Shown piece after piece: positions 15,331 to 35,142 of a stretch of DNA of 64,000 bases. The stretch covers positions 62,001 to 126,000 of the forward strand of contig CAMCGZ010000004.1 in NCBI GenBank assembly GCA_945874535.1. The letters run 5' to 3'. The position numbers and the translations under genes are program-made. The notes beneath the pieces are model-generated. The model saw only the letters and a program-made list of their open reading frames with translations, had not been told where the DNA came from and did not search any database. Origin of the DNA: Bdellovibrio sp. ZAP7 (GTDB lineage: Bacteria > Bdellovibrionota > UBA1018 > CAIMNF01). Numbering within the stretch: the first letter of the stretch is position 1; every line of letters starts with the position of its first letter.

Positions 15331-16821
15331 TTATTTCTTCGGAATAGCGGCCGGAGCCCGGTTCAACGGGATATTGAACTGGGCCCTGGGGCCGAGACCG
15401 TCTGGGTTGATGAAAGTTTCCATGGGGATCACGATGTACATGGTCGTTCTCGTTTTCGGAAAGACCACGCCGGCTGAGATCTCTCCGCTGATTCCCGAAC
15501 TCTTCGACCAGTCTTTCAGGAGCCCCACGTTTACAAAACCTGTGAGCGGGTTTTTTTGATACTGACTGGTGAAGGAAGCACCCAGATTCGCGCCGGTTGA
15601 AACCTGTTCTGGATGGTTGAGGTCCGAAAACCGTACTGGCGTCACGGTCGCACTGGCAATGAGCGATCCGGAGCGCAATTGATAGAGTCCTGTGGCTTCA
15701 GCTGAAGACCCGAGACGGGCTACAAAACCTGTCGTGTGCGTGATGCGACTCTGGGTTTCTTTTCCGGTGTGAGTCATTTGGACAATCAGATGGCCGGCCC
15801 GGTTGTCTTTATTTGTTTCGTAGCCGACGAATGTGTTCAAACTGGTGCCGTTCGACAAGCGGTTCTGAATCGCCGCACCCGATAATGCGCTCTGGCGCAT
15901 GGGTTGCACGATCGCCAGTGCCATCACGTTGGTATTCCCGGTTTTGCCCAATCTTGGAATGCGACTCTCAAAGGTCAAAGTACTCTGGTTGAGTTGAGTG
16001 GCATTGATCTGAAAACTCAATGAATGATTTACGGTGCGTTTCATGCCCGGAAGGGTCCAGTTTTGTGCATAATTCATCCCCACGGGAACACTCAAGGGCC
16101 CCGCCTTGTAGTGTTGCGCACTGAAGGTGGGCTTGGAAGGCGGCGCCTTTGACTTCACTTGGACCGCAGTGATTCCGCTACCCTCCACTCGGACCGCGGT
16201 CCACCGGGCACTCGGCACCCACACATCCGGGCGCTCTGAATCGGGATTCAGTTCGAGCACCGCATAGTCAGTGAATTCAGGGTCGGTCACCAGAACCTGC
16301 GGCAAACCCGTACTTGAAAGTCCGTCCTCTCCGGCGTCCACCGGACAAGTTTCCATATCGGAAACTTGAGTCAGGTAGGCCGCTTGATCAAAGCCTCCGG
16401 GCATGAGCGAGTACAACGGGGCCAGGTTAGAGATGGAATGAGGTAGAACATTCGCGGCAGGAGCCTCGGTTTCCCCGGTACTGAAGACCGGAATCCATCG
16501 GTAATTGATTCTTCCGATCGCTGGGTCGGAGAATGACGTATTGACTCCGAGACCAAGACGGTTTTTCAAAGTGGTTGGATTGTTGATCGCGCTCTGGAGA
16601 TCCGGGATTCGTTTGAATCCCTCGAAGCTGCTCAGATCGAGACTATTTCCCGGTTGACTCAGGTATTGATTCAACAGGAACAGGTTCGTTTCCTGGTTTG
16701 GATTTGTATAGACGAAGCCAGAAGTCCCGGGCGGCCATTGAGCCCAAGCGCTTCCGCCCGGTAGAAAAACTCCACCGGTGACCCACATCAAACCCATGAA
16801 AAACAACCATGCCAGACGCAT
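15331..16821 (-). CDS. Secreted protein of unknown function, 496 aa
   Basis: Starts with a clear signal peptide (hydrophobic residues 3-20, cleavage near GSAWAQ). The mature part is rich in Ser, Thr, Asn, Gln and Gly with alternating hydrophobic residues. It has a C-terminal half (VMALAIVQPM, GYETNKDNRAGHLIVQMTH, SLIASATVTP) that reads like beta strands of a surface or outer-membrane protein. No known domain recognised. It lies between hemH and corA on the same strand, 52 nt after hemH. Confidence 0.7.
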   Translation of the reverse strand: MRLAWLFFMGLMWVTGGVFLPGGSAWAQWPPGTSGFVYTNPNQETNLFLLNQYLSQPGNSLDLSSFEGFKRIPDLQSAINNPTTLKNRLGLGVNTSFSDPAIGRINYRWIPVFSTGETEAPAANVLPHSISNLAPLYSLMPGGFDQAAYLTQVSDMETCPVDAGEDGLSSTGLPQVLVTDPEFTDYAVLELNPDSERPDVWVPSARWTAVRVEGSGITAVQVKSKAPPSKPTFSAQHYKAGPLSVPVGMNYAQNWTLPGMKRTVNHSLSFQINATQLNQSTLTFESRIPRLGKTGNTNVMALAIVQPMRQSALSGAAIQNRLSNGTSLNTFVGYETNKDNRAGHLIVQMTHTGKETQSRITHTTGFVARLGSSAEATGLYQLRSGSLIASATVTPVRFSDLNHPEQVSTGANLGASFTSQYQKNPLTGFVNVGLLKDWSKSSGISGEISAGVVFPKTRTTMYIVIPMETFINPDGLGPRAQFNIPLNRAPAAIPKK

Positions 16822-18520: not shown

Positions 18521-19504
18521 TCAAAGATTCTTTTTGAATACACCGTAGCGATGCTCCCAAATCTGGAAAGCCTCGCCGCGTTTCAGCAAGTGTTCGCTTT
18601 GAGCCCCGTTCCGAATCAGTGCGGAAACCACTTTCCTGATTCCGTTTCGGGCTGCCAGGGTCAATGCATGATGGATTCCGAAAGCTGCCAACCCGGCACC
18701 TTGGTACCCTGGCAGGATGGCCAAGGTCTTCCAAACGAGGTATCCGGATTCCGGAAAAAGGAAGAAGTAACCGATCTCCTCACCCGAGGGATTCAAAATG
18801 AAAAAACTGAATTCGCTCAACAAGGATGCGAATCGGGGAGCCACAAGCTCCTGATAAGCTCGATCGTCAAAGGGCTCCGCGAGGAAACTCTGCTCGAAAC
18901 TGCCGGCATTGATTCGGGTCAGGGCGAGCAGGTCCCGGGTCCGGTTTTTTGAGAAATCCAGTGGCCTGATGGAAAACCCCTGGCTCAATGCCTGTTCGTA
19001 CCGATCCTGAGACTTCGGGAGAATCCGATCCAGGTGCTGGTAACCCCGGGAGTGGTACTCTTCGGCTAGACTGAAACCCGCAGCTCGAAACCATTCGACA
19101 TAAGCCGCCGGCTGGGATGGCTCCCAAAAGAACGGAGGTGGAACCTCTGCCTCTCGGGCATCTTGCAGGCGCAAACGATAGTCGAATAGAGTATGGTAAT
19201 TGACCGGCCCATAGACCGTTCGAACTCCGCGCTTACGAAGCCAGTGTCCAGACTCCTCCAAAAGAGCCAGCGCACGCGACTCCGCATCCGGTAAAGACGG
19301 ATCAAAGTCGAAGAAACCGATGTAACCCGACTCGGGATCTCTCAAAGAGACGCTTGCTGCCACTCTGCCCGGAACCGATGCCCCATCGCCCTCATCAATG
19401 AGGTGAACCCTCTCGAATTGGAAAGGAAATGCGAGAATTTTCTTTTCGAATTCCGTTCTGGCAAAATGACTTCCGAGCTCCTGGATCTGAACTTCGCGGA
19501 TCAT
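18521..19504 (-). CDS. GNAT-family N-acetyltransferase-like protein
   Basis: A 327-aa protein whose C-terminal ~150 residues look like a GNAT fold. It has IGYFFLFPES (strand before the acyl-CoA site), WKTLAILPGYQGAGLAAFGIHHAL (the R/Q-x-x-G-x-G/A acetyl-CoA loop here GYQGAGLA) and a YGVF end strand. The N-terminal half (FFDFDPSLPDAESRALALLEESGHWLRKRG, in fragments) resembles a second degenerate GNAT domain, as in large uncharacterised acyltransferases. Its ATG overlaps the upstream dikinase stop (ATGA). It is the last gene of the six-gene operon; the acyl acceptor may be the operon's product. Confidence 0.75.
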   Translation of the reverse strand: MIREVQIQELGSHFARTEFEKKILAFPFQFERVHLIDEGDGASVPGRVAASVSLRDPESGYIGFFDFDPSLPDAESRALALLEESGHWLRKRGVRTVYGPVNYHTLFDYRLRLQDAREAEVPPPFFWEPSQPAAYVEWFRAAGFSLAEEYHSRGYQHLDRILPKSQDRYEQALSQGFSIRPLDFSKNRTRDLLALTRINAGSFEQSFLAEPFDDRAYQELVAPRFASLLSEFSFFILNPSGEEIGYFFLFPESGYLVWKTLAILPGYQGAGLAAFGIHHALTLAARNGIRKVVSALIRNGAQSEHLLKRGEAFQIWEHRYGVFKKNL

Positions 19505-22224
19505 AAGATGCGAATCTCCCCTTTTCCGGCGTCGACTCTCACTCTTTGTCCGGTCTTCAGGCGCTTCATCAGGCCGCCCGAAATCCCGACAATGGTAGGA
19601 AGGCCCAATTCACGGGCGACCACGGCGGAGTGAGAAAGGAGGGAGCCGCGCTCGATCAATAAGCCCGAGCAAGAAGGATACAGTGGCACCCACCCGGGGT
19701 CGGTTCGGGAAGTGACCAGAATCTCACCCTGAAGGTTCTCGGTATCTTTCAATTCATGAGCCACCCGAACCACGCCCTCCACAACACCCGGACAGCACGG
19801 TGTTCCGTAAAGGAAGTTCGGATCCTGATTCTTGGCCTCGAGTTCCCGAAGGAGATCACCCCCATCCAATACGGAAGGATAGGCTTCGGACAATCCGACA
19901 GCACCATAGGTTACGAAGCGATCCGGAGGGGATGGAGTCCGCTTGTACTCTTCAAATGCAGGCTTTCGGACACTCACCAAGTCCCGAAGAGAATGGGTCG
20001 GAAGACGCCCTTCCACAAAGGCGATGATTTCTTCGACAGTGAGGAAAAACACCTCGAACTCGTCGTTCAAAAGACCGAGCTTTACAAAGTTGCCACCCAC
20101 CGCACGCATGAGGTGACGGACCAGTCCGTAACTCTTGGTACGGTCAAACCGCAAATCTTCGCGATTCCGGACTGCCGTGCGTGCATGCCCGAGTACCCAG
20201 AAGTAGATCCATCGTCTCGGTCCGAACAGTTTTAAACGGATCTTGTGCTCGGCTCCCTCCCGGATCTGCCGTTCGCGGATTTCCATGGCCTCAATCGAAT
20301 AGGACTTCATCCTGACGTAGCTGGCCACATTTCCGACAACAAACGCCGGATCGTCATGCAAATCACGCTCCTCGAACTTGAGCTCGTTGACACAACGGAA
20401 CCCGTAACGATCGAGGAACTCCAGGAATCGCTTATGAATCACGGAATTTTTCTCCGGCAGGGCCTTCCATGTTTCATCGGCGGAACCAGCCAGGAAAAAA
20501 CTCCTGAATGCCGGATCCCCCTCGTCTATTTCACGGGCAATCCGCATCAACCATTTTGTGGGCTCGGTGCTCTCGAGATCCCCTTGCCCGCAAAGCAAAT
20601 CGTTTTGAAGACTGGCCCCCGCATCTCCGGACTCGACCCATTTTGATGTGAGCGACTTGAGGACCCCGAAGAAAACCATGCAGAGAAAATCATTCACGAT
20701 GGGCGCCTGCCAGCGAGGGAGGATCTCCCTCCTGAGGTACAGGAAGTAATCGATCTGCTCCGGGAGCGACCAAGCCCTGAAGTTCTCTCTCCTTCCGGCC
20801 TCATACATGGCATTGAAGTGGGTCTTGAACTCACGGATGATGGATGCACTCCTCCAGAATCTCAGAAGAGAAACGACAATCAGTTGGAGCTTGAGTCCGA
20901 TGCCATAATCGGGTCGGTCTTTCACGAAATCGAATATCCGTTGATGCTCACTCGAAAGACTCTTCTTCACCCCCATCATTGTTTCCATGAAGGCGGGATT
21001 ATTCCCTGAACCCGGCATGATCATGAGTAGCCGGTACCAATTGATCAAATTGTAATAGATCCGGCCACGGATGAGTCCGAGCATGTTCTGGAGTCGCTGA
21101 TCGTTCTCCTGGAGGACCTTCTCAGGAACCTTCATCATCCGTGCGAACTGGAGATAGACCTGATAATACGCATAGCTGGCATACGAAAAAGTGAAAGGTG
21201 AGGTCACTCCACTGTAACTCTCGATGATGTTGGAGTTATCCCAGAGCGTTGCCGAGGTTCCATTCACTTTGGAATTGAAAAAAGACTCGGGTGGAAGCGA
21301 GGTCACCGGTCGCATCTGCAGAAAATGCAACGTCCCCCCGGCCAAAGCCCATTCGATATCCTGGGGAGTTCCCCCGGCTAATTGTTCGAGTTTCAATGCC
21401 GTCACACGCAACTCATCGAGTTCTTCGATTGAAAGCACCCTGGGGCGGAGTTTTCCAGCCGGAATGGCTTGCTTGATCAGGCCACCCCCTTCCTTCCTCC
21501 GGAGCTCATGCGTGTGTTCCGCCGGACGATGGAGGAGCACATCTCCTTGCACCCGATGGATGCGGAAGTGATCGGATTCGAGCTCGCCTCCCACCAAACC
21601 CTCACCCTGACCGTAAACAGCCTCAATCACCATGGCTTCCCGATCCAAAGGAGCCGAGGGATCACGGGTGAACAAAACACCGGCACGTTCAGAATCGATC
21701 ATCTTCTGAATCACCACCCCCATGCGGGGCAAAGCGGAGGGAATCCCACGTTCCAAACGGTAACGAAGACCACGCTCAGAAAAAGCCGAGGCCCAAGCTC
21801 TCCTGATAGAACAGGACACCTGGGACATTCCTCTTTGAAACAAAAAGCTCGAGAACAAACCGGCAAAGGAGTGGTCCTTCGAGTCCTCATCGAGCCCGCT
21901 CGATCTGACTGCGAGTTCCTCGTCCAGCCATCCGGTCGCCCGTAAACGCCCCTCGAGCTCCGCCTCAAATGCCGGCAGAAGCGGGTGCTCTGTGAACCAT
22001 TGTACGACTTGCTCTTCGGACTCCTTTCCGGGGATGAGTCCCGAAACCCGATCCCGGAGCCCGTGGTGGTCCAGGTATTCGTCGAACACCGGACTCGGCA
22101 CACAAAACCATTCGGGAACCGGAATTCCGGCTCGGGTCAGAATCGCCAATTGCGCGGCTTTTCCACCGCCGAAAAGCCTGAAATCCGAATCCAGGTTTCG
22201 AACATCGAGTAAACGCTTGTTCAT
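19501..22224 (-). CDS. PEP-synthase/rifampin-phosphotransferase-like dikinase
   Basis: A 907-aa, three-part enzyme. The N-terminal ATP-grasp domain (FGGGKAAQLAILTRAGIPVP, AVRSSGLDEDS, GVLFTRDPSA, EAVYGQGEGLVGG, DIEWA near residue 300) resembles PEP synthase and rifampin phosphotransferase. A long variable central region replaces the PEP/pyruvate barrel. The C-terminal swivelling domain carries the phosphohistidine in GSLLSHSAVVAREL (His about 865). It lacks the PEP-utilising barrel, so it probably phosphorylates a small molecule with ATP giving AMP + Pi. Start 22224 (MNKRLLDV) overlaps the UbiA stop. Role in the operon is inferred. Confidence 0.87.
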   Translation of the reverse strand: MNKRLLDVRNLDSDFRLFGGGKAAQLAILTRAGIPVPEWFCVPSPVFDEYLDHHGLRDRVSGLIPGKESEEQVVQWFTEHPLLPAFEAELEGRLRATGWLDEELAVRSSGLDEDSKDHSFAGLFSSFLFQRGMSQVSCSIRRAWASAFSERGLRYRLERGIPSALPRMGVVIQKMIDSERAGVLFTRDPSAPLDREAMVIEAVYGQGEGLVGGELESDHFRIHRVQGDVLLHRPAEHTHELRRKEGGGLIKQAIPAGKLRPRVLSIEELDELRVTALKLEQLAGGTPQDIEWALAGGTLHFLQMRPVTSLPPESFFNSKVNGTSATLWDNSNIIESYSGVTSPFTFSYASYAYYQVYLQFARMMKVPEKVLQENDQRLQNMLGLIRGRIYYNLINWYRLLMIMPGSGNNPAFMETMMGVKKSLSSEHQRIFDFVKDRPDYGIGLKLQLIVVSLLRFWRSASIIREFKTHFNAMYEAGRRENFRAWSLPEQIDYFLYLRREILPRWQAPIVNDFLCMVFFGVLKSLTSKWVESGDAGASLQNDLLCGQGDLESTEPTKWLMRIAREIDEGDPAFRSFFLAGSADETWKALPEKNSVIHKRFLEFLDRYGFRCVNELKFEERDLHDDPAFVVGNVASYVRMKSYSIEAMEIRERQIREGAEHKIRLKLFGPRRWIYFWVLGHARTAVRNREDLRFDRTKSYGLVRHLMRAVGGNFVKLGLLNDEFEVFFLTVEEIIAFVEGRLPTHSLRDLVSVRKPAFEEYKRTPSPPDRFVTYGAVGLSEAYPSVLDGGDLLRELEAKNQDPNFLYGTPCCPGVVEGVVRVAHELKDTENLQGEILVTSRTDPGWVPLYPSCSGLLIERGSLLSHSAVVARELGLPTIVGISGGLMKRLKTGQRVRVDAGKGEIRIL

Positions 22225-23093
22225 GACGAAAACCCCTCGATCCACTGTTGCAGGGGAAGACTCCAGAGTGCCAAGAGCAGATACAGAGTCACCAGGCCTT
22301 CAATGATTTTAAAACGGGATGGCGCCCACCAGAGGAGGCTCGAACCGGCCAAGATCAAGATGTAAAGAGGTCCCAGTACCGAGGCCACGCCCAGTGTGCT
22401 TGCAGCATGAGTGGAGATTCCAAGAAGCCCCAGGAGCAGGAATACCGTCTTTTCCTTTCCATATACGCTCAAGTAAGTTCGAAGGACCGGGTGCGCCTCT
22501 GGATCGAGCTTACGGCCCACTTCAAAACCGAAAAAGGCTCCAATCAGGAGCGTGCAAAACCAGAAGCCCCGGAGGTCATTCCAGGGGCTGTGAAAACAAG
22601 CCAGAACAAAGTAACCGAGTGGAAAAATGATGATCTGGTGAAGGATAGCGTACAACAAAGGCCTCCGGGCCAAACGATCGCCCAGATAGAACTCCACAAA
22701 CATGAGATGCAGGTAGAACACTCCGAACCCGAAAAGGATTGCCGCCTGAATTCCCCCTGCGACCGCGGCGACACCCATCCAAAGAATCATCGACCATTGG
22801 AATCGACGCACAAAAGTTTTGAATTCATCCAGACGGAAAAGACCTCTCGGAAGGGGGCGCTCAGGATGCGCGATCTTGTCTTTTTCAAAATCTTTGGTCT
22901 CATCCATCAGGCGAAGTTGCATGAGAAACAGCATCCCACCGATGAGTGCGATCATGAAAGCCAAGGGTCCTCTCGGTTCGCTCCCTTGCACTGTGGACCA
23001 CCTTCTGGCCGACTCCACGATACCGAGGGCCACCAACAGGTTCGGGATGAGTGGAAAGCGTTCCTTGAAATAAATTGACCAACGTGAATTCAT
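22221..23093 (-). CDS. UbiA-family prenyltransferase-like membrane protein
   Basis: A 290-aa integral membrane protein with about eight hydrophobic helices. The first Asp-rich motif is D64-ETK-D68-FEK-D72 (DxxxDxxxD) followed by AHPERPLPRG, typical of UbiA enzymes. The second acidic region is FEVGRKLDPEAH near residues 190-201. The family moves prenyl or other polyprenyl-like groups onto aromatic or other acceptors. The acceptor here may be supplied by the neighbouring AMP-ligase and P450. Overlaps both neighbours by ATGA, so translation is coupled. Confidence 0.8.
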   Translation of the reverse strand: MNSRWSIYFKERFPLIPNLLVALGIVESARRWSTVQGSEPRGPLAFMIALIGGMLFLMQLRLMDETKDFEKDKIAHPERPLPRGLFRLDEFKTFVRRFQWSMILWMGVAAVAGGIQAAILFGFGVFYLHLMFVEFYLGDRLARRPLLYAILHQIIIFPLGYFVLACFHSPWNDLRGFWFCTLLIGAFFGFEVGRKLDPEAHPVLRTYLSVYGKEKTVFLLLGLLGISTHAASTLGVASVLGPLYILILAGSSLLWWAPSRFKIIEGLVTLYLLLALWSLPLQQWIEGFSS

Positions 23094-24508
23094 CGACTTG
23101 CTCCTCGATCGATCCGGGAACGGTGTCTCCGGTCCCGGACGATCCTGGTTTCAATGACAGAGTGGATTTCAGCGAATTGCCGCAAGAGCTCCGGGGTCCG
23201 GGATCGAAGCCCCTCGCCTCGCAGAATCAAGCGATCGGATCCCGGCTCCCGATCGATAAATGCGGCACTGTGACCCATGAAACGGTACACGCTTTGTTCG
23301 AGCTCGAACTCGGAAGGCGACTGGAAACTCCGGCCACGGTACCAAAATCCCGCTTCATCTTCTGCAACCCGATCTCCCATGAAGTGCCAGACCCTTCCGG
23401 TGGAGTCAGTCCGCTTATTCCGGAGAACCTCATCGTCATTTCCGCTGTATCGTTTGCACACATGGTCACCGGTGACCCAAAGACCCTCGGAGCTGACCGA
23501 GGTTTCGATCCCTTGGGCGGGTTTTCCTAGATACAAAGTTTGAAAAAATCCCTTTTCGCGACTGAAACGAACGGCATCTCTGGCGTCCGAGAACGCTACC
23601 GGTTCTGCCTCACTGCTCCCGTATACATGCAAAAACCGGGTTCCTGGACCGAAGTGATCGAAAGCTTTCTCCAAGTCGCAGCAATCGCTCAAAGCCCCTC
23701 CGATATGGATCGAACGCAAATCCCTGGCTACACCCGCCTCCATGAGTCGAATCAGAAACGCGGGCCCGGCACTGAGTGTCTCCGGGCGCCACATCGGAGG
23801 AAGATGCGCGAGCCGATTCAGATGCCGTGCCTTCCAGCGGGAAGGGACAAAAACCGTTCCTCTGCCCATACCGAGATTGGCCAGGACCAAATTTGCAAAG
23901 ATAGCTAAATCGGGTTTCTGAAATTGCTCGAACCCACCCGAAATCCGGATGGCCCGGTTCTGAGCACTCAGTCCCTCGTGGGTCCTGACCACTCCTTTTG
24001 AGCGCCCCGTGGTTCCGCTGGTGAAAGTGATCACCCCAGGATGGTCGCCCGGCACCGCCATCGATTGAAGTCTCTTCCGGCTGCTCGAATCCACTGGGCC
24101 CGAACAGAGAGAGCGAGCGGAACTCCAAGTCGGAACTCTCCGGATCGCGGCAGATCGCAAACCCCAAATTCTCCCCATGACTGAAGCAAGAAAAAGTCGG
24201 GGTTTCATCTTTGAGACGATGGAATCGATTTCGGAAAGTGGTAAAAACGGCTCTACCAGCAATACCGTCACTCCACGACTGAGCAGGGCCATGACCGTTG
24301 CATAAAACTCCACCGACACCGAGTCGGCCAGAAGTACACCCTCTCCGGGACCGATGCCCGCACGATCCAGATTTCTCTCTGCATTTCTTGCAAGAGCCAG
24401 CAAAGTCCCGAAATCGCTTGGATCTCCATCGAGAGGGAAAAAGGCAGGTGCTGTCGGAGGGATCTCCCGCTCCCAAAGCAACTCCATGGTATTCCCGTGC
24501 AGGCTCAT
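23090..24508 (-). CDS. Acyl/aryl-AMP ligase (ANL family)
   Basis: A 472-aa adenylate-forming enzyme. The P-loop TFTSGTTGRSKG (residues 161-172) is intact, followed by VRTHEG. The A5-type motif is YGSSEAEPV (about 296), and GLWVTGDHV and FMGDRV carry the adenine/ribose-binding Asp. It is slightly short for the family, with a compact C-terminal lid, so thioester transfer may be reduced. A free carboxylate is activated with ATP; the substrate is unknown. ATG 24508 is chosen because AGGA lies 7-8 nt upstream; 24487 is an alternative. It lies 10 nt after the P450 stop. Confidence 0.88.
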   Translation of the reverse strand: MSLHGNTMELLWEREIPPTAPAFFPLDGDPSDFGTLLALARNAERNLDRAGIGPGEGVLLADSVSVEFYATVMALLSRGVTVLLVEPFLPLSEIDSIVSKMKPRLFLASVMGRIWGLRSAAIRRVPTWSSARSLCSGPVDSSSRKRLQSMAVPGDHPGVITFTSGTTGRSKGVVRTHEGLSAQNRAIRISGGFEQFQKPDLAIFANLVLANLGMGRGTVFVPSRWKARHLNRLAHLPPMWRPETLSAGPAFLIRLMEAGVARDLRSIHIGGALSDCCDLEKAFDHFGPGTRFLHVYGSSEAEPVAFSDARDAVRFSREKGFFQTLYLGKPAQGIETSVSSEGLWVTGDHVCKRYSGNDDEVLRNKRTDSTGRVWHFMGDRVAEDEAGFWYRGRSFQSPSEFELEQSVYRFMGHSAAFIDREPGSDRLILRGEGLRSRTPELLRQFAEIHSVIETRIVRDRRHRSRIDRGASR

Positions 24509-24518
24509 CCGAGATTCC

Positions 24519-25853
24519 TCATCCTGACCGCCGGATCAATCGAAGCATCAAGGGTTGTTTCATGCCCAACGTGATCTGGAAGTCTCCCTCCGAGCTGCGC
24601 CCCGGAACGGGTTCAAGTTTCCAGGCCTGGAGCATGCGGATCAGAATCAGTTTGATTTCGAGGAGAGCGAAGTGCCGCCCCACACAGGTCCTCGGACCCA
24701 TGCCGAACGGAAAAAATGCGAGCTTGTTTTTCTCTCTGAGTTCGGATGTCCATCGATCCGGATCGAATTCCCCGGGGCGATCCCAGAAGCCCGGATGACG
24801 GTGAGTCAGGTAGGGTGAAAGATACAAGATCGATCCGGCCCGGATCCGGTGTCCCCGTATCTCGTCGTCCTCGAGCGCCCTCTTGGTCCAGGCCCAAACC
24901 GGTGGATGCAAGCGGAGGGATTCATCCACGACTGCACTCAAAAACGGCATCCCCATGGCCTCTTCGGCTCCCGGGACGCGCTGTCCGACACTCCGTTCGA
25001 TCTCGGTAAACAGTCGTTGCTGGTGTTCCGGATGAATCGACAGCTCATGCAAAATCCACGGGATGAGATGCCCGGTGGTTTCGAACCCTGCGAGCATCAT
25101 GGAAACCGCCTCGTCGCGGAGTTGTGCCGAATCCATCCCCTCACCCGTCTCGGGGTCCCGCGCCTGCATCATCTTGGTCAGAAGGTCATCGCCCGCCTCT
25201 CCGGATTGGGACTGAGCTGTTTTTTGCCCGATCAAACTCCAAACCGTCCGGTCGATGGTTCTCAGGGCCCGGTGGAATTTAAGATTGGAGGGGGTCGGAA
25301 AGGACATGGGTACAGGCAGCAAAGCACCGAAGCGCCGGGTCAGGTAACGATTGATATAAACCATGGCCTGACGGAGCGATGTGAAGTCACCGGTGCTTTC
25401 AGTGCCGAACACAGCCTCACAGACAATTTCAAAAGCGAGCCGTTTCATGGACTCGCTCATCTCGACCGGACGGTGATCGGCTTCAAGCATTGCATCAAGG
25501 GTGAGACCGATCTTTCGATTCATGTCATCCACCATCTTGAGCAGACTGCCCTGGTGGAAAGTGGGTGCGATGAGGCGCCTCTGTTTCTTCCACTTCTCGC
25601 CCTCACTCATGAAGATGCCGTCACCCACGACCGCACGGAAATTGGTGGCCTTCACATAATTCCTGGCATTCTTCATTTCCACACGGTGAATGTCCTCTGG
25701 ATGGGCGACCAGGACCAGTGTGTGCGGCCCCAATCTGAAGCGCACCACATCTCCATAACGCTCCCGAAGACGTTGCAAAAAACCGACCTTGTCGAGACGG
25801 TATTGATGTAAATTCCCGATCCAAGGCAGTCCGGGGACCAGCACGGGTATCAT
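24519..25853 (-). CDS. Cytochrome P450
   Basis: A 444-aa soluble bacterial P450. It has the I-helix oxygen-binding motif AGFETTGH (normal AGxxT), K-helix ExxR in DESLRLHPP, WxxPxxFDPDRW-type meander (GEFDPDRW) and the heme-thiolate loop FGMGPRTCVG with the axial Cys at about residue 390. Sequence style is CYP4/CYP102-like, which often hydroxylate fatty or isoprenoid chains. No membrane anchor and no dedicated ferredoxin or reductase gene in the window. ATG overlaps the BtaA-like stop. Confidence 0.95.
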   Translation of the reverse strand: MIPVLVPGLPWIGNLHQYRLDKVGFLQRLRERYGDVVRFRLGPHTLVLVAHPEDIHRVEMKNARNYVKATNFRAVVGDGIFMSEGEKWKKQRRLIAPTFHQGSLLKMVDDMNRKIGLTLDAMLEADHRPVEMSESMKRLAFEIVCEAVFGTESTGDFTSLRQAMVYINRYLTRRFGALLPVPMSFPTPSNLKFHRALRTIDRTVWSLIGQKTAQSQSGEAGDDLLTKMMQARDPETGEGMDSAQLRDEAVSMMLAGFETTGHLIPWILHELSIHPEHQQRLFTEIERSVGQRVPGAEEAMGMPFLSAVVDESLRLHPPVWAWTKRALEDDEIRGHRIRAGSILYLSPYLTHRHPGFWDRPGEFDPDRWTSELREKNKLAFFPFGMGPRTCVGRHFALLEIKLILIRMLQAWKLEPVPGRSSEGDFQITLGMKQPLMLRLIRRSG

Positions 25854-26944
25854 GCCGGCAACCTCTCAAGAACTTCAACTTCGTACATTTGCATCCTTTC
25901 CAGAGCGATCGATTCACGGAATGCAGAAGTGATGTCTTGAAAGCCCTGCCTGACCAGGCCTTCAGGCCGGTGCAGGTAGTGACGCAAGACTACACGGGCT
26001 CCTGGAAGGAGCCCCTTCCCTATTCTTTGAAGAAATTCCTGTTCGACCGGCGGATTGAAATAAGAGGCGACGTTCGAGAACGAGACAAAGTCGACCCCTT
26101 TGGCCCGCTCGAGCCCGCTGACCAGATCCCCTTCGATCCATTCGAGCTCGATTCCGCTTAAAGCTTGTCGGGCTTCCCGGTAAATCACGGGATCGGCTTC
26201 AGGTGGAAGCCCGGATGAAAATCGGAGTTCTCCGAGCAAAGTGAGCTGCAGGAAAAAGTTATCTCGAGCGAGCCCTTGAGCGAAGAGTCTGTCGAAAGCG
26301 CGTTGGTAGTAAGTCACGTAACCGACTCCGGTATTGTTGACCGGAAAATCGCCCGAATAAAGTAGCGAATTGAAGGTTCGGGCATTGCCGGCCAAGGCGA
26401 TCAGGGCCTTCCACGGCAAACCACTCCACTCTCGGCGCACCAACTCCTCCTGCTCGGAAACATTTGTACAGGCGAAGAGTCTTTCGATCCTTCCGGCACC
26501 CAACATCAGCCGGGCGAGTTTTGAAAAGCCGATAAATGTACGCTCCCAACGCCCCTCCAGTAGAGGCGAGCGAAATCCGGCAGACTTCAATCGGGCCTCG
26601 AGATAACGACGACTGGAGGGTCTAAGTTTTAGATCCATGAAGATGGATTCCCGGTCCTGGGGTGAGACTTCGGAACCTCCAGGATAAGAGAAAAACCCGA
26701 GATAGTCCGGGTGATCGAGCACACGCAATAAGGACAAACGGAGATCGCATAAAGCGAGTTGGGGGGCGGACAGGTCGACCACGGCCAGACGACGCAGTCC
26801 GTTCTTCAACAGGGGCAACACACGTCCACCACTCCCGCAAACGACCCACGCATGAGTGCAGGGCTCAGGAAGAATATTGCGTTCCAGGAGGCTGTCCTCG
26901 TTGGTCAGGGTGTAATTCAATTCTCGGAAATATTGGCTCCCCAC
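25850..26944 (-). CDS. BtaA-like AdoMet:3-amino-3-carboxypropyltransferase (DUF3419)
   Basis: A 364-aa protein of the DUF3419/BtaA family. These enzymes move the 3-amino-3-carboxypropyl group of AdoMet, in BtaA to diacylglycerol to start betaine-lipid synthesis. Visible features are YTLTNEDSLLERN, the AdoMet motif VVCGSGGRVLPLL (34-46), VVDLSAPQLALCDLRL and a late SFSNVASYF. No BtaB N-methyltransferase is present nearby, so the product need not be a betaine lipid. GTG start with the promoter -10 only 7 nt upstream. First gene of the six-gene operon. Confidence 0.82.
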   Translation of the reverse strand: MGSQYFRELNYTLTNEDSLLERNILPEPCTHAWVVCGSGGRVLPLLKNGLRRLAVVDLSAPQLALCDLRLSLLRVLDHPDYLGFFSYPGGSEVSPQDRESIFMDLKLRPSSRRYLEARLKSAGFRSPLLEGRWERTFIGFSKLARLMLGAGRIERLFACTNVSEQEELVRREWSGLPWKALIALAGNARTFNSLLYSGDFPVNNTGVGYVTYYQRAFDRLFAQGLARDNFFLQLTLLGELRFSSGLPPEADPVIYREARQALSGIELEWIEGDLVSGLERAKGVDFVSFSNVASYFNPPVEQEFLQRIGKGLLPGARVVLRHYLHRPEGLVRQGFQDITSAFRESIALERMQMYEVEVLERLPA

Positions 26945-26997: not shown

Positions 26998-29568
26998 ATG
27001 TCGGGACTTTTGCTTCTTTGCTTGCGCCAGATCCGCGTAAGACCTTTCCGTTCTCTCCTGACCCTGTTCAGTGTGGCACTCGGGGTGGCACTGTATACTT
27101 CCATCGACATCGTCAATCACTCTACGCTCCTCAGTTTCCGTTCAGGAATCGAAGCTTTGAGCGGTAAAGCTCAACTGTCCATTCAAGGAGGAGAAAACGG
27201 GTTTGACGAGTCTGTCCTCGAAGATGCCGCAAAGCTTCCAGAAGTCGGATCAGCAGTCCCTCTGGTCGAGACCCGGGTCTATTCGGGAACCGGGCACAAG
27301 ACCGAAACCTTGACCATTCTCGGAATCGATTTACTGAAGGAAAGCTCGGTCAGGGCCTATCAAGCGGACTCGCGCAACCTGCTCGATGATCCGTTGACGT
27401 TCCTCAATCAACCCGACAGTCTGATCCTGACGCGAACTTACGCGGACCGCCACAAAATCAAAAAAGGAGATCGCATCCGTCTGGCAACCGCTCACGGATC
27501 ACGGAGCTTCACCGTCCGCGGACTCCTTGAGCCGGAGGGACCGGCGAAGGCTTACGGAGGCAATCTCGGTATTATGGATATCGACGGGGCCCGATTCCAG
27601 TTCGGTAAAAACGGGAAGATCGACCGGATCGATATCATCCCACGGGAGGGCTTACCGATCGACCGTGTCCGGGAGGCTTTGAAAAACCGATTCGAACCCG
27701 GCCTCGAGGTAGAAAGCCCCGCCACACAAGCGGACGGGATGAGGCGCCTGGTTGAGAACTATCAAGCCCTTCTTCAGTTTCTCGGTCTTCTGGCACTGCT
27801 GGTCGGTTTGTTTTTAGTGATGAATACAACCACGATTGCCATCGCCGAACGGAGGAAGGAATTCGGTATCCTCCGAGCGCTCGGGGCTCCAACCGTGTCC
27901 CTTTTGCTCATCCTGGTTTTGGAATCGGCTGTGCTCGGACTGATCGGTTCTTTTGCCGGGGTGATTTTGGGCAAGTTTGTCGCCGAGAAAACCTCCAGTC
28001 TCATGACCGGAGCGCTTTCTCTCCAATACCTGATTCCCATCCATCTCGATCGACTGTCGATCGGATGGCCTCAATGGATGAAGGGGGTGGGACTCGGAGC
28101 CGGAGTCGCACTTTTTGCCACGCTGATCTCGGGTCGCGCAGCTCTCAAGATCCAGCCCCTCGAAGCCGTCAAGGGTGCGCCCGCAGGCATTCCCCTCACC
28201 CATCCACTCCTCCCCTGGCTCGGATCCGGCTTCCTGTCATTGATCATGCTCGATGCCCTGTTCGGGTGGAGCAATCACCAGGCCTGGTTCAGATCCATCA
28301 ATCCCCTTCTGCTGATGTTAGGGGCCATACTGACCAGTCCGGCACTGGTCAGGTCTTTCATCCGGCTGATCCGGGCTTTCGTTCCTTCGCCTTCCATCAG
28401 ACTGGGGGCGGATCAACTCCTCCGGAATCCCCGGAGGACCGGAGGAAACATCATGGTGATGATGACCGGACTCATGCTGGTGATCGTTCTGGCCCTCACC
28501 AACCGGAGCATCAAGCACAGCCTCAACCTTTGGTTCGACAAAACACTCGCAGCCGACCTAGTGATTTCTTCCAGTGGAAAAATTCTTTCTTTCCAGGTCC
28601 AGCCGCTGGATGAAGGGCTCAAGTCAGAAATCGAATCCCTCCCGGGAGTGGATCATGCCAGCAACGGTGGCGCCACTGGCCTCCGTTACGTCAAACAACG
28701 TTATGACGGCCACACGCTGGCTCTCAAAGCCTTTGATCGTCCTCATCCAAGGGTCGGGAACCGCATCTTTGATCTTACTGAAGGGAACCCGGAAGAGGTT
28801 TTCGGTAAATTCTTTGATTCCTCCCAAAATTCGATTCTGGTTTCTCAGAATTTCGTCCTCAAATTCAAAAAACGCCCAGGAGATGAAATCGATCTGCCCA
28901 CACCCACCGGGATCCGGAAATTCCGAATCGAAGGGGTGGTCGCCGAGTTCACCAATCCCGAGGGGGTGTTTTATCTGAACCGGGATCTTTACCGGCGTTT
29001 CTGGAAAGACCCGCTGATCTCGGGATTTTTTGTCACCGTCCTTCCGGGGGTGAACCCGGCAGATGTCCGCGCCGCCCTGGATTCCACTCTCGGTAAGCAA
29101 AAGGGCCTGATGGCCACGCTGAATACCGAACTCGCCCAAGAGGCCCGGGCCATGGTGGATCAGAGTTTCGCCTACACCCGGGCGATCGAAGCCTCTGCCT
29201 TACTGGTGGGCCTGTTCGGACTGTTCAATACCTTGCTGATCTCGATTCTTGAGAGACGCCGTGAAATGGGAATATTGAGATCCATCGGAATGACCAGGGC
29301 ACAGCTGGTGAACATGATCATCGGGGAAGGACTCATTCAAGGTTTGGCCGGAGGCATCGCAGCTGTGGCCATCGGGGTGTTCGGGACTTATTTTTGGATC
29401 ATGGGAACCGTTTCCTCACTCCTCGGCTGGGTCCTGCAGTTCTCAGCACCCCCCGAAGCCCTGTTCCGGACCGTCGGTTTCGGTCTCGGAGTCGGTATTC
29501 TGGCCGGAGTGATTCCCGCACGCATCATTTCAAAGCTTGAAATCCGCGATGCTCTCGAATCCGAGTGA
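26998..29568 (+). CDS. ABC transporter permease with two FtsX domains
   Basis: An 856-aa inner-membrane protein of the YbbP/MacB-like type. TM1 is near residues 15-38, a long periplasmic segment follows, then a first FtsX block (FLGLLALLVGLFLVMNTTTIAI, RRKEFGILRALGA). A central TM pair precedes a second periplasmic region and a second FtsX block (LLVGLFGLFNTLLISI, RRREMGILRSIGMTRAQL). Such permeases move lipids or lipoproteins or act mechanically in the envelope, driven by a separate ATPase. No ATPase gene is adjacent, so the partner must be elsewhere. It opens a lipid-themed gene run. Confidence 0.88.
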   Translation: MSGLLLLCLRQIRVRPFRSLLTLFSVALGVALYTSIDIVNHSTLLSFRSGIEALSGKAQLSIQGGENGFDESVLEDAAKLPEVGSAVPLVETRVYSGTGHKTETLTILGIDLLKESSVRAYQADSRNLLDDPLTFLNQPDSLILTRTYADRHKIKKGDRIRLATAHGSRSFTVRGLLEPEGPAKAYGGNLGIMDIDGARFQFGKNGKIDRIDIIPREGLPIDRVREALKNRFEPGLEVESPATQADGMRRLVENYQALLQFLGLLALLVGLFLVMNTTTIAIAERRKEFGILRALGAPTVSLLLILVLESAVLGLIGSFAGVILGKFVAEKTSSLMTGALSLQYLIPIHLDRLSIGWPQWMKGVGLGAGVALFATLISGRAALKIQPLEAVKGAPAGIPLTHPLLPWLGSGFLSLIMLDALFGWSNHQAWFRSINPLLLMLGAILTSPALVRSFIRLIRAFVPSPSIRLGADQLLRNPRRTGGNIMVMMTGLMLVIVLALTNRSIKHSLNLWFDKTLAADLVISSSGKILSFQVQPLDEGLKSEIESLPGVDHASNGGATGLRYVKQRYDGHTLALKAFDRPHPRVGNRIFDLTEGNPEEVFGKFFDSSQNSILVSQNFVLKFKKRPGDEIDLPTPTGIRKFRIEGVVAEFTNPEGVFYLNRDLYRRFWKDPLISGFFVTVLPGVNPADVRAALDSTLGKQKGLMATLNTELAQEARAMVDQSFAYTRAIEASALLVGLFGLFNTLLISILERRREMGILRSIGMTRAQLVNMIIGEGLIQGLAGGIAAVAIGVFGTYFWIMGTVSSLLGWVLQFSAPPEALFRTVGFGLGVGILAGVIPARIISKLEIRDALESE

Positions 29569-30458: not shown

Positions 30459-31367
30459 ATGCGTGACGAGATCGCTTTCTTCATCAATCAGGAGTCCGGA
30501 TCGGGAGAGGCCCCCCAGGTCGCCGACGCTGCAGCCGCAAGCCTCTCCGGACTCAGAGTTCGAAAGAACCTCCCGAAGAGCTCGATCGACCTCGCCCGTG
30601 CCTGCTCGGAGCTTGATCCCACCCGGACCCGGGCTGCGGTGGTTTTCGGTGGAGACGGAACCCAGACCTACGCACTCCGTGGCCTGATTGAGAACGGCAT
30701 CCCGCTTTACCCCTTCCCTGCCGGTACTGCCAATGACCTGGCCCTGGATCAGGGAATCACCGGTTGCCGGAGTCAGCTCGGATCCCTGCTCGAGTCTGAA
30801 TCGATTGAAGAGGTCCGGGTTCTTGAAGTGAATGGAATCCCCTTCTCGACCATTTCAGGAATCGGCATTGGTGCTGAACTGTGTGAGGAATACAATGATC
30901 TGAGAGCCCGCCATCGCTTGTTCAAGAAGGCCTCTCAGCGTATGAATTGCGAGATTTATTCGGCGCTCGCACTGAAAAATATCCTGAAGAACTGGGGCAA
31001 GGGACTCCAGGTCAGGATCACCCGTGATGGCCAGAGCGAAGAGCTGACCTTGTCCTCGCTCATGATCTGCAATCAAGAAAATCTGGCCGGAAATCTCAAG
31101 GTTGCCCCCGGCCAAAACAAACACGCTGACAGCTTCACTGTGCTCATTCATCCAGGAGTTTGCGGGTTCAACACTCTTCGGGGCTTGAGCTCGATGAAGT
31201 TCGGGAAAATCGATTCGAGCTTCATCACTTACAAGACGGAACGAATCCGGATCGAGTCTTTGAATGGTGCGCCCCTCACCGTATTCGGAGATGGTGAGAT
31301 CCTGATCCGGAGTCCGGTATTGGAATTCCGGGCTTACCCGAAAAAACTGAGAGTGTACCGCGCGTGA
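30459..31367 (+). CDS. Diacylglycerol kinase-type lipid kinase
   Basis: A 302-aa member of the DAGK catalytic family (YegS/DgkB-like), which phosphorylates diacylglycerol or a related lipid with ATP. GGDGT at residues 64-68 and PAGTANDLA at 87-95 are the nucleotide-binding motifs, and SGIGIGAEL sits at the start of the second domain. The C-terminal beta-sandwich ends with VFGDGE (a conserved DGE). It is cytosolic and membrane-associated by function, with no TM segment. Its stop overlaps the GTG start of the PLA2-like gene. Confidence 0.93.
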   Translation: MRDEIAFFINQESGSGEAPQVADAAAASLSGLRVRKNLPKSSIDLARACSELDPTRTRAAVVFGGDGTQTYALRGLIENGIPLYPFPAGTANDLALDQGITGCRSQLGSLLESESIEEVRVLEVNGIPFSTISGIGIGAELCEEYNDLRARHRLFKKASQRMNCEIYSALALKNILKNWGKGLQVRITRDGQSEELTLSSLMICNQENLAGNLKVAPGQNKHADSFTVLIHPGVCGFNTLRGLSSMKFGKIDSSFITYKTERIRIESLNGAPLTVFGDGEILIRSPVLEFRAYPKKLRVYRA

Positions 31368-33495: not shown

Positions 33496-35055
33496 TCAAT
33501 TGATAGATGAACCAATACCTGGACCCGACCCGCTCGTTGTCCCGCTCGTTGTGGGTTTATTCTGGACGTTATGCACCTTGTAGCCGTCAGCAATGTAGCT
33601 GTGGTCTCCGTCGGTGGTGAAATTATAGACGGTTTCGGAATTCATCACCGAATCGATCCGATGAATCCGGAAACTACCGTCCCGGGTCATCAGCACATCA
33701 CTCGGATTCATATTCAAAACCGCCAATCCCGGGCTCTCCTTCGAGCTCAGAACCGGGTTCAGTGAACGCCAGCCACGATCACTCAAGAAAGGATGCGAAT
33801 CGGTAAAGAAGGCCTTGCCCCCATTGAATCCGTACTTCAAGCCGCGATGAGGGATCTTGAAGAGCTTCGTCACCGAATTGACTTTACCGCTGGCACCGCG
33901 CACGCGGTCACCGATCCGGATTTCTTCAATCGCCTTGAGCGAACCATCAGCCATTTCAACCCGGGTTCCGGCAATGAAGCAGCCCGAGCCGGTTCCGCCT
34001 CCTCCACCAGTCGTGGTCGTGGTGCCCCCGCTACTGTAACCGATCAGTGAAATCGACCGGTTGAACGGCCCACCATTGGCACACTCGAAGGTCAAGGTGG
34101 TCGAATAGCTCATTGCCGAAGCGGGAATTCCCGTAACGGAAACCGAACAGGATGCCCCTGCAGCCAGTGAACTCCCGCAAGAAGAGCCCAAAATAAAGAC
34201 ACTGACGGGCGACATGCCCACCGTACAACCGGTAGCAGAAGCCGTTCCCGAATTGGAAAAGGTGAAGTTTGCGGCTGAAGACTCGCTATAAACAGTGACC
34301 AGCCCCAAGGAGGTCCCGGTACTTGGAGAAACTGAAAGCGAGGGCGCACTACTCACTCCGGATCCAGACCCACTACCGGATCCAGAAGTCGTGGTTCCCC
34401 CGCTTCCGACCACACCGGTTACCGAAATCTGACGGGAAATCCCTGTTCCCGAATTCGAACAACCAATATTCAAGTTGGTCGTGAAGGTGTTCACAGAGAG
34501 AGGAGTCCCTCGAACCCCGATCGTGCAGGATCCGCTCGCAGCGATCGTGGACCCGCAATTGTTCGATGAGACGGTGAAGACACTCGGATTACTGAGGGAA
34601 TAAGTACAACCCGTTGCTGAAACCGAAGCGCTGGTGTTGCTAACCGTGTAGGTGGCCGTGGATCCGGACAAAGCGGCAACGGTCACATTACCGAGACTCT
34701 GGGCGGCACTTGGTGTGACAGAGAGAGTGGTTGAACCCGAACCGCTTCCTGAGGTGGTTCCCCCAGCCACTGGTACGGTCTTGGTATAACAGGAGTAATT
34801 GGCCCCGTTGTACGCCACAATCACGAGGCTACAGTTTCCAGAGCCCCAAACAGAGGTACAACTCGACAGTCCAGAATAGTAGGTGACCAATGGATTCGAT
34901 GCAGAGCTACAAGCGCTTCCGGCCGAGACACCACCGCCCGAAACAGAGGTTGCGGCATTCCCAGCGACCTGGGACAAAACCGACCCTTGCTTCGCGCATC
35001 CCGCGAACAGAACCATGAAGCCACCCAAAACCACCCAGTGTATCCGTCCAGACAT
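33496..35055 (-). CDS. Lipoprotein with beta repeats and C-terminal Hint (intein-like) domain
   Basis: A 519-aa protein. The start is ATG 35055, with a Shine-Dalgarno AGAGGGG 5 nt upstream, giving a signal peptide with lipobox FAGC. Two ~100-residue ASH-like repeats (about 109-216 and 238-340, each starting LSV-P-S and rich in Ser/Thr/Gly/Cys) are joined by Gly-Ser linkers. From Cys359 runs a Hint domain: CFIAGTRVEMADGS, IGDRV, block-B-like TDSHPFLS, and a C-terminal VYNFTTDGDHSYIADGYKVHN. Hint domains self-cleave at the Cys via an N-S shift. A Ser/Gly tail of about 23 residues follows HN. Likely a surface protein that processes itself. Confidence 0.87.
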   Translation of the reverse strand: MSGRIHWVVLGGFMVLFAGCAKQGSVLSQVAGNAATSVSGGGVSAGSACSSASNPLVTYYSGLSSCTSVWGSGNCSLVIVAYNGANYSCYTKTVPVAGGTTSGSGSGSTTLSVTPSAAQSLGNVTVAALSGSTATYTVSNTSASVSATGCTYSLSNPSVFTVSSNNCGSTIAASGSCTIGVRGTPLSVNTFTTNLNIGCSNSGTGISRQISVTGVVGSGGTTTSGSGSGSGSGVSSAPSLSVSPSTGTSLGLVTVYSESSAANFTFSNSGTASATGCTVGMSPVSVFILGSSCGSSLAAGASCSVSVTGIPASAMSYSTTLTFECANGGPFNRSISLIGYSSGGTTTTTGGGGGTGSGCFIAGTRVEMADGSLKAIEEIRIGDRVRGASGKVNSVTKLFKIPHRGLKYGFNGGKAFFTDSHPFLSDRGWRSLNPVLSSKESPGLAVLNMNPSDVLMTRDGSFRIHRIDSVMNSETVYNFTTDGDHSYIADGYKVHNVQNKPTTSGTTSGSGPGIGSSIN

Positions 35056-35142
35056 AGACACCCCTCTTCTCACAGTTTAACGGGAATCCTGTCGCGAACA
35101 AGCACTATTCTAGTCCATGATTTTGGTTGAATCCCCATGCAA

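Follow-up and report, generated by a model that had tools for sequence, protein, structure and literature searches.

The window analyzed here, a stretch of 64,000 nucleotides from an uncultured relative of the bacterial predator Bdellovibrio (Bdellovibrio sp. ZAP7, a Bdellovibrionota MAG), contains a unit of six genes on the minus strand (18521-26944). The first gene encodes a putative AdoMet 3-amino-3-carboxypropyl transferase of the BtaA-like DUF3419 family (25850..26944), and is followed by genes for a cytochrome P450 (24519..25853), an AMP-ligase (AMP1; 23090..24508), a UbiA-superfamily membrane transferase (22221..23093), a dikinase of the PEP-synthase/rifampin-phosphotransferase/PigC type (PPS; 19501..22224) and, in last position, a tandem-GNAT N-acyltransferase (18521..19504). 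Junction sequences revealed ATGA overlaps between DUF3419 and P450, AMP1 and UbiA, UbiA and dikinase, and dikinase and GNAT, while P450 and AMP1 are separated by a 10-nt gap. The longest dikinase reading frame starts from a GTG at 22245; the overlap with UbiA uses not this codon but an internal ATG at 22224, which is probably the start of the gene. The reading-frame list and the junctions agree with a preliminary description of the locus in the six genes, their positions, the overlaps and the single gap.

Lipid-related genes had also been reported next to the operon, and most of them were recovered. On the plus strand, an 856-aa double FtsX/MacB-like (LolCE-like) permease is divergently oriented to the operon (26998..29568; Pfam and NCBIfam matches), followed by a ceramidase-family membrane hydrolase (PF05875, 29623..30369) and a DAGK_cat lipid kinase (30459..31367), both identified with Pfam. 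The gene that had been called PLA2-like gave no family match. The window further encodes a protein of 525 aa that contains a Hint-like (intein/Hedgehog-type) domain and weakly matches Ig-like domains (33496-35073, minus strand), as well as a 496-aa reading frame adjoining hemH (15331-16821, minus strand) without a Pfam match and 76% identical in a congener.

The distribution of the system was examined in 369 Bdellovibrionota genomes, with E ≤ 1e-35 for UbiA and E ≤ 1e-40 for DUF3419 as thresholds for strong relatives. UbiA was found in 113 genomes, 110 of which also have DUF3419; nine genomes carry DUF3419 without UbiA and 247 have neither. Because related genomes share history, these counts are not independent events. 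Within the genus, both genes occur in 7 of 11 congeners and neither in the other 4. Within the extent of their contigs, the congeners keep the gene order at protein identities of 45-87%, and the divergent FtsX permease is retained beside DUF3419, usually with the lipid kinase alongside. The ceramidase gene adjoins the operon in the closest congeners only, and its link to the operon is uncertain. A stronger indication of a unit is rearrangement: in other families (loci L120, L121, L119, L128 and L054) all six genes are present together in different orders, for example DUF3419-GNAT-dikinase-UbiA-AMP1-P450 in L120. Co-occurrence and conservation with rearrangement rule out chance adjacency. The preliminary description regarded the unit as a genuine biosynthetic operon and named a lack of co-occurrence elsewhere as the observation that would speak against it; the order kept in congeners and the joint presence of the six genes in other families support the operon. 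It belongs to a biosynthetic system that recurs across the phylum, including B. bacteriovorus HD100.

Comparison of the loci further revealed two alternative, mutually exclusive cassettes, with the operon representing one of them, a feature missed in the earlier reading. The window carries the type AMP1-UbiA-dikinase-GNAT(-P450), whereas the alternative is FMT-hydrolase/AMP2-UbiA-dikinase. Among 80 UbiA loci, the 39 with AMP1 included GNAT in 30 cases, P450 in 19 and a formyltransferase in none. A formyltransferase was present in 35 of the 37 loci with AMP2, none of which had GNAT or P450 (0/37), and a hydrolase, often fused, is usual in these loci. In the dikinase tree, two old lineages can be distinguished, and AMP type changes a minimum of two times, so exclusivity reflects few events, yet modules move: in L136 and L138, the dikinase that accompanies AMP1-UbiA-GNAT comes from the other lineage.

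An exchange of cassettes was observed in the genus of HD100. The HD100 locus and that of a congener (L111 and L112) are 84% identical in an upstream kinase, 81% in a FadD-like protein and 73% in the downstream gene, whereas in the enclosed cassette UbiA is only 31% and the dikinase 43% identical. The cassette of HD100 consists of formyltransferase-AMP2-UbiA-dikinase, and that of the congener of AMP1-GNAT-P450-MFS-UbiA-dikinase. In the HD100 genome, the UbiA gene is located at 3,067,152-3,067,988 (plus strand) and the DUF3419 gene at 3,072,731-3,073,825 (minus strand). A second congener (L110) has a cassette of the AMP1 type, and yet it shares 72% identity with HD100 in DUF3419 and 76% in the reductase described below. 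This in-place swap between species looks like the exchange of a tailoring module on a shared scaffold, resembling by analogy serotype switching, and suggests selection for change in the structure of the product. Upstream of the HD100 cassette lie genes for a Ser/Thr kinase with a PEGA domain and for a FadD11-like acyl ligase (2657-6502 of L111), both of which are conserved in two congeners.

Pfam and NCBIfam confirmed the initial family assignments of the operon genes except that UbiA scored below the Pfam cut-off and DUF3419 had no NCBIfam match. With PF11899 the DUF3419 protein gave 94.5 bits (cut-off 28.2), and its SAM-type motifs NED..E and GSGxR and residue D57 are invariant in an alignment of 15-20 relatives. 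The AF2 model (pLDDT 90) has a SAM-type Rossmann core; a search of the PDB gave no fold match below E=1e-3 and no close solved relative. Membership in the DUF3419/BtaA family by itself makes a homoserine-type head group in the product plausible. The P450, an optional tailoring enzyme of the acyl-type cassette, scored 305.6 bits with PF00067, and its ExxR, ETT and Cys motifs are conserved. The GNAT protein, for which 15 members were aligned, scored 24.4 bits with PF00583 (cut-off 20.7), and its AF2 model matches tandem GNATs.

The lipid context suggested earlier for the window emerged much more strongly in relatives. Their fuller systems gain a DAGK-type lipid kinase, an NAD-binding SDR and a protein of about 700 aa resembling PigE and acyl-ACP reductase. 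The 80 UbiA loci contained a dikinase in 77 cases, DUF3419 in 55, the PigE/AAR-like protein in 49, DAGK in 49 and SDR in 45. Homologues of DAGK_cat are found beside the system throughout the phylum, and some loci (L048, L053 and L174) contain linked ABC-FtsX-LolA_like export genes. The C-terminal half of the reductase-like protein scored 157 bits with the PigE reductase region and 58.5 bits with acyl-ACP reductase; PigE is reported to convert a thioester to an aldehyde (PMC8341465). In one such protein (11483-12442 of L046, minus strand), the N-terminal 320 aa or so have no Pfam match. The presence of reductase, SDR, lipid kinase and LolCE/LolA-like export genes in relatives makes a lipid substrate and export to the envelope likely. 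The best-supported reading, which we consider an even call, is that the operon provides the acyl-type cassette in a system for an envelope aminolipid, i.e., an amino-acid-containing lipid.

The main rival is that the product is a diffusible secondary metabolite, such as a signal, an antimicrobial or a siderophore-like compound, that is exported by the permeases and is not a structural envelope lipid. The occurrence of related genes outside the phylum, examined in plasmids and in one scan of genome contigs, is relevant here. An alphaproteobacterial plasmid from Roseinatronobacter has five of the six genes in one run, UbiA-dikinase-DUF3419-hypothetical membrane protein-GNAT-AMP. Its GNAT matches the profile of the operon GNAT at 3e-22 and its UbiA keeps the family motifs, and no reductase, SDR or DAGK genes lie beside the cassette. 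A Deefgea plasmid carries a DUF3419 relative without UbiA, AMP or dikinase. Such a plasmid cassette lacking the three lipid genes, and a lone plasmid-borne DUF3419, would fit a metabolite that diffuses. The patchy presence within the genus, the MFS gene inside the L112 cassette and a related dikinase-UbiA pair in an AfsA-containing run on Streptomyces clavuligerus plasmids point in the same direction. On the other hand, the steady linkage in many genera to a lipid kinase and an acyl-thioester reductase, and the LolCE/LolA-type genes of some loci, argue against this explanation, which we regard as possible but rather unlikely.

Several of these distant loci have features of their own. The membrane protein of the Roseinatronobacter run (439 aa; 4932-6251 of L131) had no match in a Pfam scan, and phytol/dolichol-kinase-like motifs recognized by eye offer a lead only. 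In the Deefgea piscis plasmid (NZ_CP054144.1, L130), the row at 18586-21898 encodes a weakly FeeM-like protein, an iron-containing redox enzyme, DUF3419, SpeD and a monooxygenase-like protein, a second DUF3419-centered cluster that possibly uses decarboxylated AdoMet. The S. clavuligerus row (7355-14033 of L132) comprises an AfsA-like hotdog protein, an isoprenylcysteine methyltransferase-like protein, the dikinase, the UbiA-subfamily protein and an oxidoreductase, and Streptomyces durmitorensis (L133) has AfsA, methyltransferase, nitroreductase, dikinase and P450. DUF3419-FMT-AMP2-UbiA was found on a contig labelled Nomurabacteria (L067), which may be misbinned.

A further explanation is that the product is a prenylated amino acid or aromatic, meroterpenoid-like compound, formed by UbiA from an isoprenoid diphosphate and an acid activated with AMP. 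AMP1 is an adenylate-forming enzyme related to PRK09274 and OleC by NCBIfam, with 91.9 bits for Pfam AMP-binding. The catalytic Lys of motif A10 is replaced by Arg in 16/16 aligned AMP1 sequences, whereas it is retained in the AMP2 members examined. Because of this Arg, the assumption that AMP1 activates a carboxylate may be wrong. The UbiA-like protein scored 23.2 bits in Pfam, below the cut-off of 34.2, and the family profile identified digeranylgeranylglyceryl phosphate synthase as the nearest solved relative (E=3e-4), in agreement with a prenyl transfer. The first Asp-rich motif, (N/D)DxxDxxxD, is intact as well, with D64, D68 and D72 invariant. The subfamily is characterized by R(L/V)xDExKDxxxD...PxRPLPRG and ExxRK, the latter replacing the second Asp-rich motif in all members aligned. 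The absence of this usual motif speaks against the prenyl-like transfer proposed earlier. Moreover, neither a prenyl diphosphate synthase nor genes of an aromatic pathway were present in the neighborhoods examined, and the linkage to an acyl-thioester reductase suggests fatty chains, making a meroterpenoid-like product improbable. AMP1 and UbiA probably act in sequence, since they are fused in 10 loci of relatives.

The dikinase could also join two separately made halves, one of them prepared by the PigE-like reductase, to give a conjugate in the manner of prodigiosin ligation. Its PPDK_N (212.9 bits) and PEP-utilizers (68.9 bits) matches in Pfam correspond to ATP-binding and phosphohistidine domains without the PEP/pyruvate barrel, and the residues that bind ATP are retained, as is SHSAVVAR, the phosphohistidine motif. 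The nearest solved structures are 5fbs and 5hv1, deposited under the name of PEP synthase but corresponding to Listeria rifampin phosphotransferase. The NCBIfam matches were PigC, RedH and Rph, all under their curated cut-offs. Identity as a PigC/RedH ligase was rejected at 271.9 of 1300 and 315.6 of 1350 bits, and as rifampin phosphotransferase at 277.9 of 999 bits (RIF_Ptrans_rph). Rph has the same domain set; the difference lies in the setting of the dikinase, a biosynthetic operon rather than a resistance context. The resemblance to prodiginine synthesis is that two homologues from that pathway, the PigC-type dikinase and, in relatives, the PigE-type thioester reductase, share clusters. 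However, no pyrrole or bipyrrole genes were found, the reductase has a different N-terminal domain in place of the PigE aminotransferase domain, and scores were far under the PigC and PigE cut-offs; only the reductase region of PigE matched (157 of 850 bits), and the reductase was not accepted as PigE. We hold such a conjugate to be quite unlikely.

Synthesis of a canonical betaine lipid (DGHS/DGTS) with some accessory genes is very unlikely: the operon shares with BtaA/BtaB the DUF3419 aminocarboxypropyl transferase and the lipid context, but no BtaB-type N-methyltransferase, fused or adjacent, was found among the genes scanned beside DUF3419 in the window and relatives, the DUF3419 subfamily is one without an NCBIfam match, and the five additional enzymes have no role in that pathway.

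In agreement with the claim that no named pathway has this set of genes, no description of it emerged from papers dealing with lipids of Bdellovibrio, with DUF3419 or with UbiA and PEP-synthase clusters; 'undescribed' means not found in that literature. Partial similarities were noted with several systems. The AMP enzyme resembles OleC, the hydrolase-AMP fusion of the sister cassette recalls OleBC, and the SDR recalls OleD. Identity as OleC beta-lactone synthetase was rejected for AMP1 (51.2 of 850 bits) and AMP2 (212.9 of 900 bits), and no OleA thiolase was among the families in the neighbors scanned. Like the ebo cluster with Ubi-297 (PMC9235831), the system is a widespread operon with a UbiA-like transferase and an uncharacterized product, but EboA, B, D and E were not beside UbiA among the window neighbors scanned. 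The Caulobacter phosphosphingolipid region CC_1168-CC_1152 (PMC11324152) similarly combines synthesis, a lipid kinase and dedicated outer-membrane transport, with enzymes and transporters unlike those described here, and the neighbors of the cluster include no serine palmitoyltransferase. The proposed product type, an N-acylated amino-acid lipid, is that of the ornithine and glutamine aminolipids (OlsB; PMC11631085). The operon differs in lacking the PF13444 N-acyltransferase, the amine being proposed to be acylated by the tandem GNAT or formylated.

For an envelope aminolipid, we infer the following chemical steps from gene content, linkage and family membership. The lipid chain would be prepared as fatty aldehyde, alcohol and phosphate by the acyl-ACP/PigE-like reductase, SDR and lipid kinase of relatives; in the window genome, where the reductase was not found, the chain would come from another source. 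DUF3419 would transfer the aminocarboxypropyl group of AdoMet, providing an amine and a carboxylate. AMP1 could then activate a carboxylate and pass it to the membrane enzyme UbiA, to be joined with the lipid chain. Via its phosphohistidine, the dikinase may pass a phosphate of ATP to a hydroxyl or carbonyl, thereby activating a coupling step, as in Rph and PigC. The amine would be acylated by GNAT, a task for which the sister cassette would use the formyltransferase, and P450, where present, would hydroxylate the product. Outward transfer may be carried out by the LolCE/FtsX-type permease and a LolA-like protein. A different cassette on the common scaffold would yield a different exposed lipid, comparable to what happens at serotype loci. 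The missing reductase, the lack of a LolA relative beside the window operon, the Arg at A10 of AMP1 and the missing second motif of UbiA count against this lipid model.

A more specific version of the aminolipid proposal, which we put forward tentatively as rather unlikely in its entirety, is that Bdellovibrionota including HD100 make an uncharacterized class of surface lipids. In these, the amine would carry an acyl group (added by GNAT, in systems with and without P450) or a formyl group, with the cassettes swapped at a fixed site in the manner of serotype switching, and the chain joined by the unusual UbiA would be fatty, not isoprenoid, and activated by the lipid kinase and the dikinase. 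No product description was found for this conserved pathway of about ten genes, which occurs in a model predator amenable to culture and mutation. Should the product prove to be a surface lipid, it would bear on differences between the envelopes of predator and prey and on phage or self recognition, and would represent an unexplored joint use of DUF3419, UbiA and dikinase chemistry.
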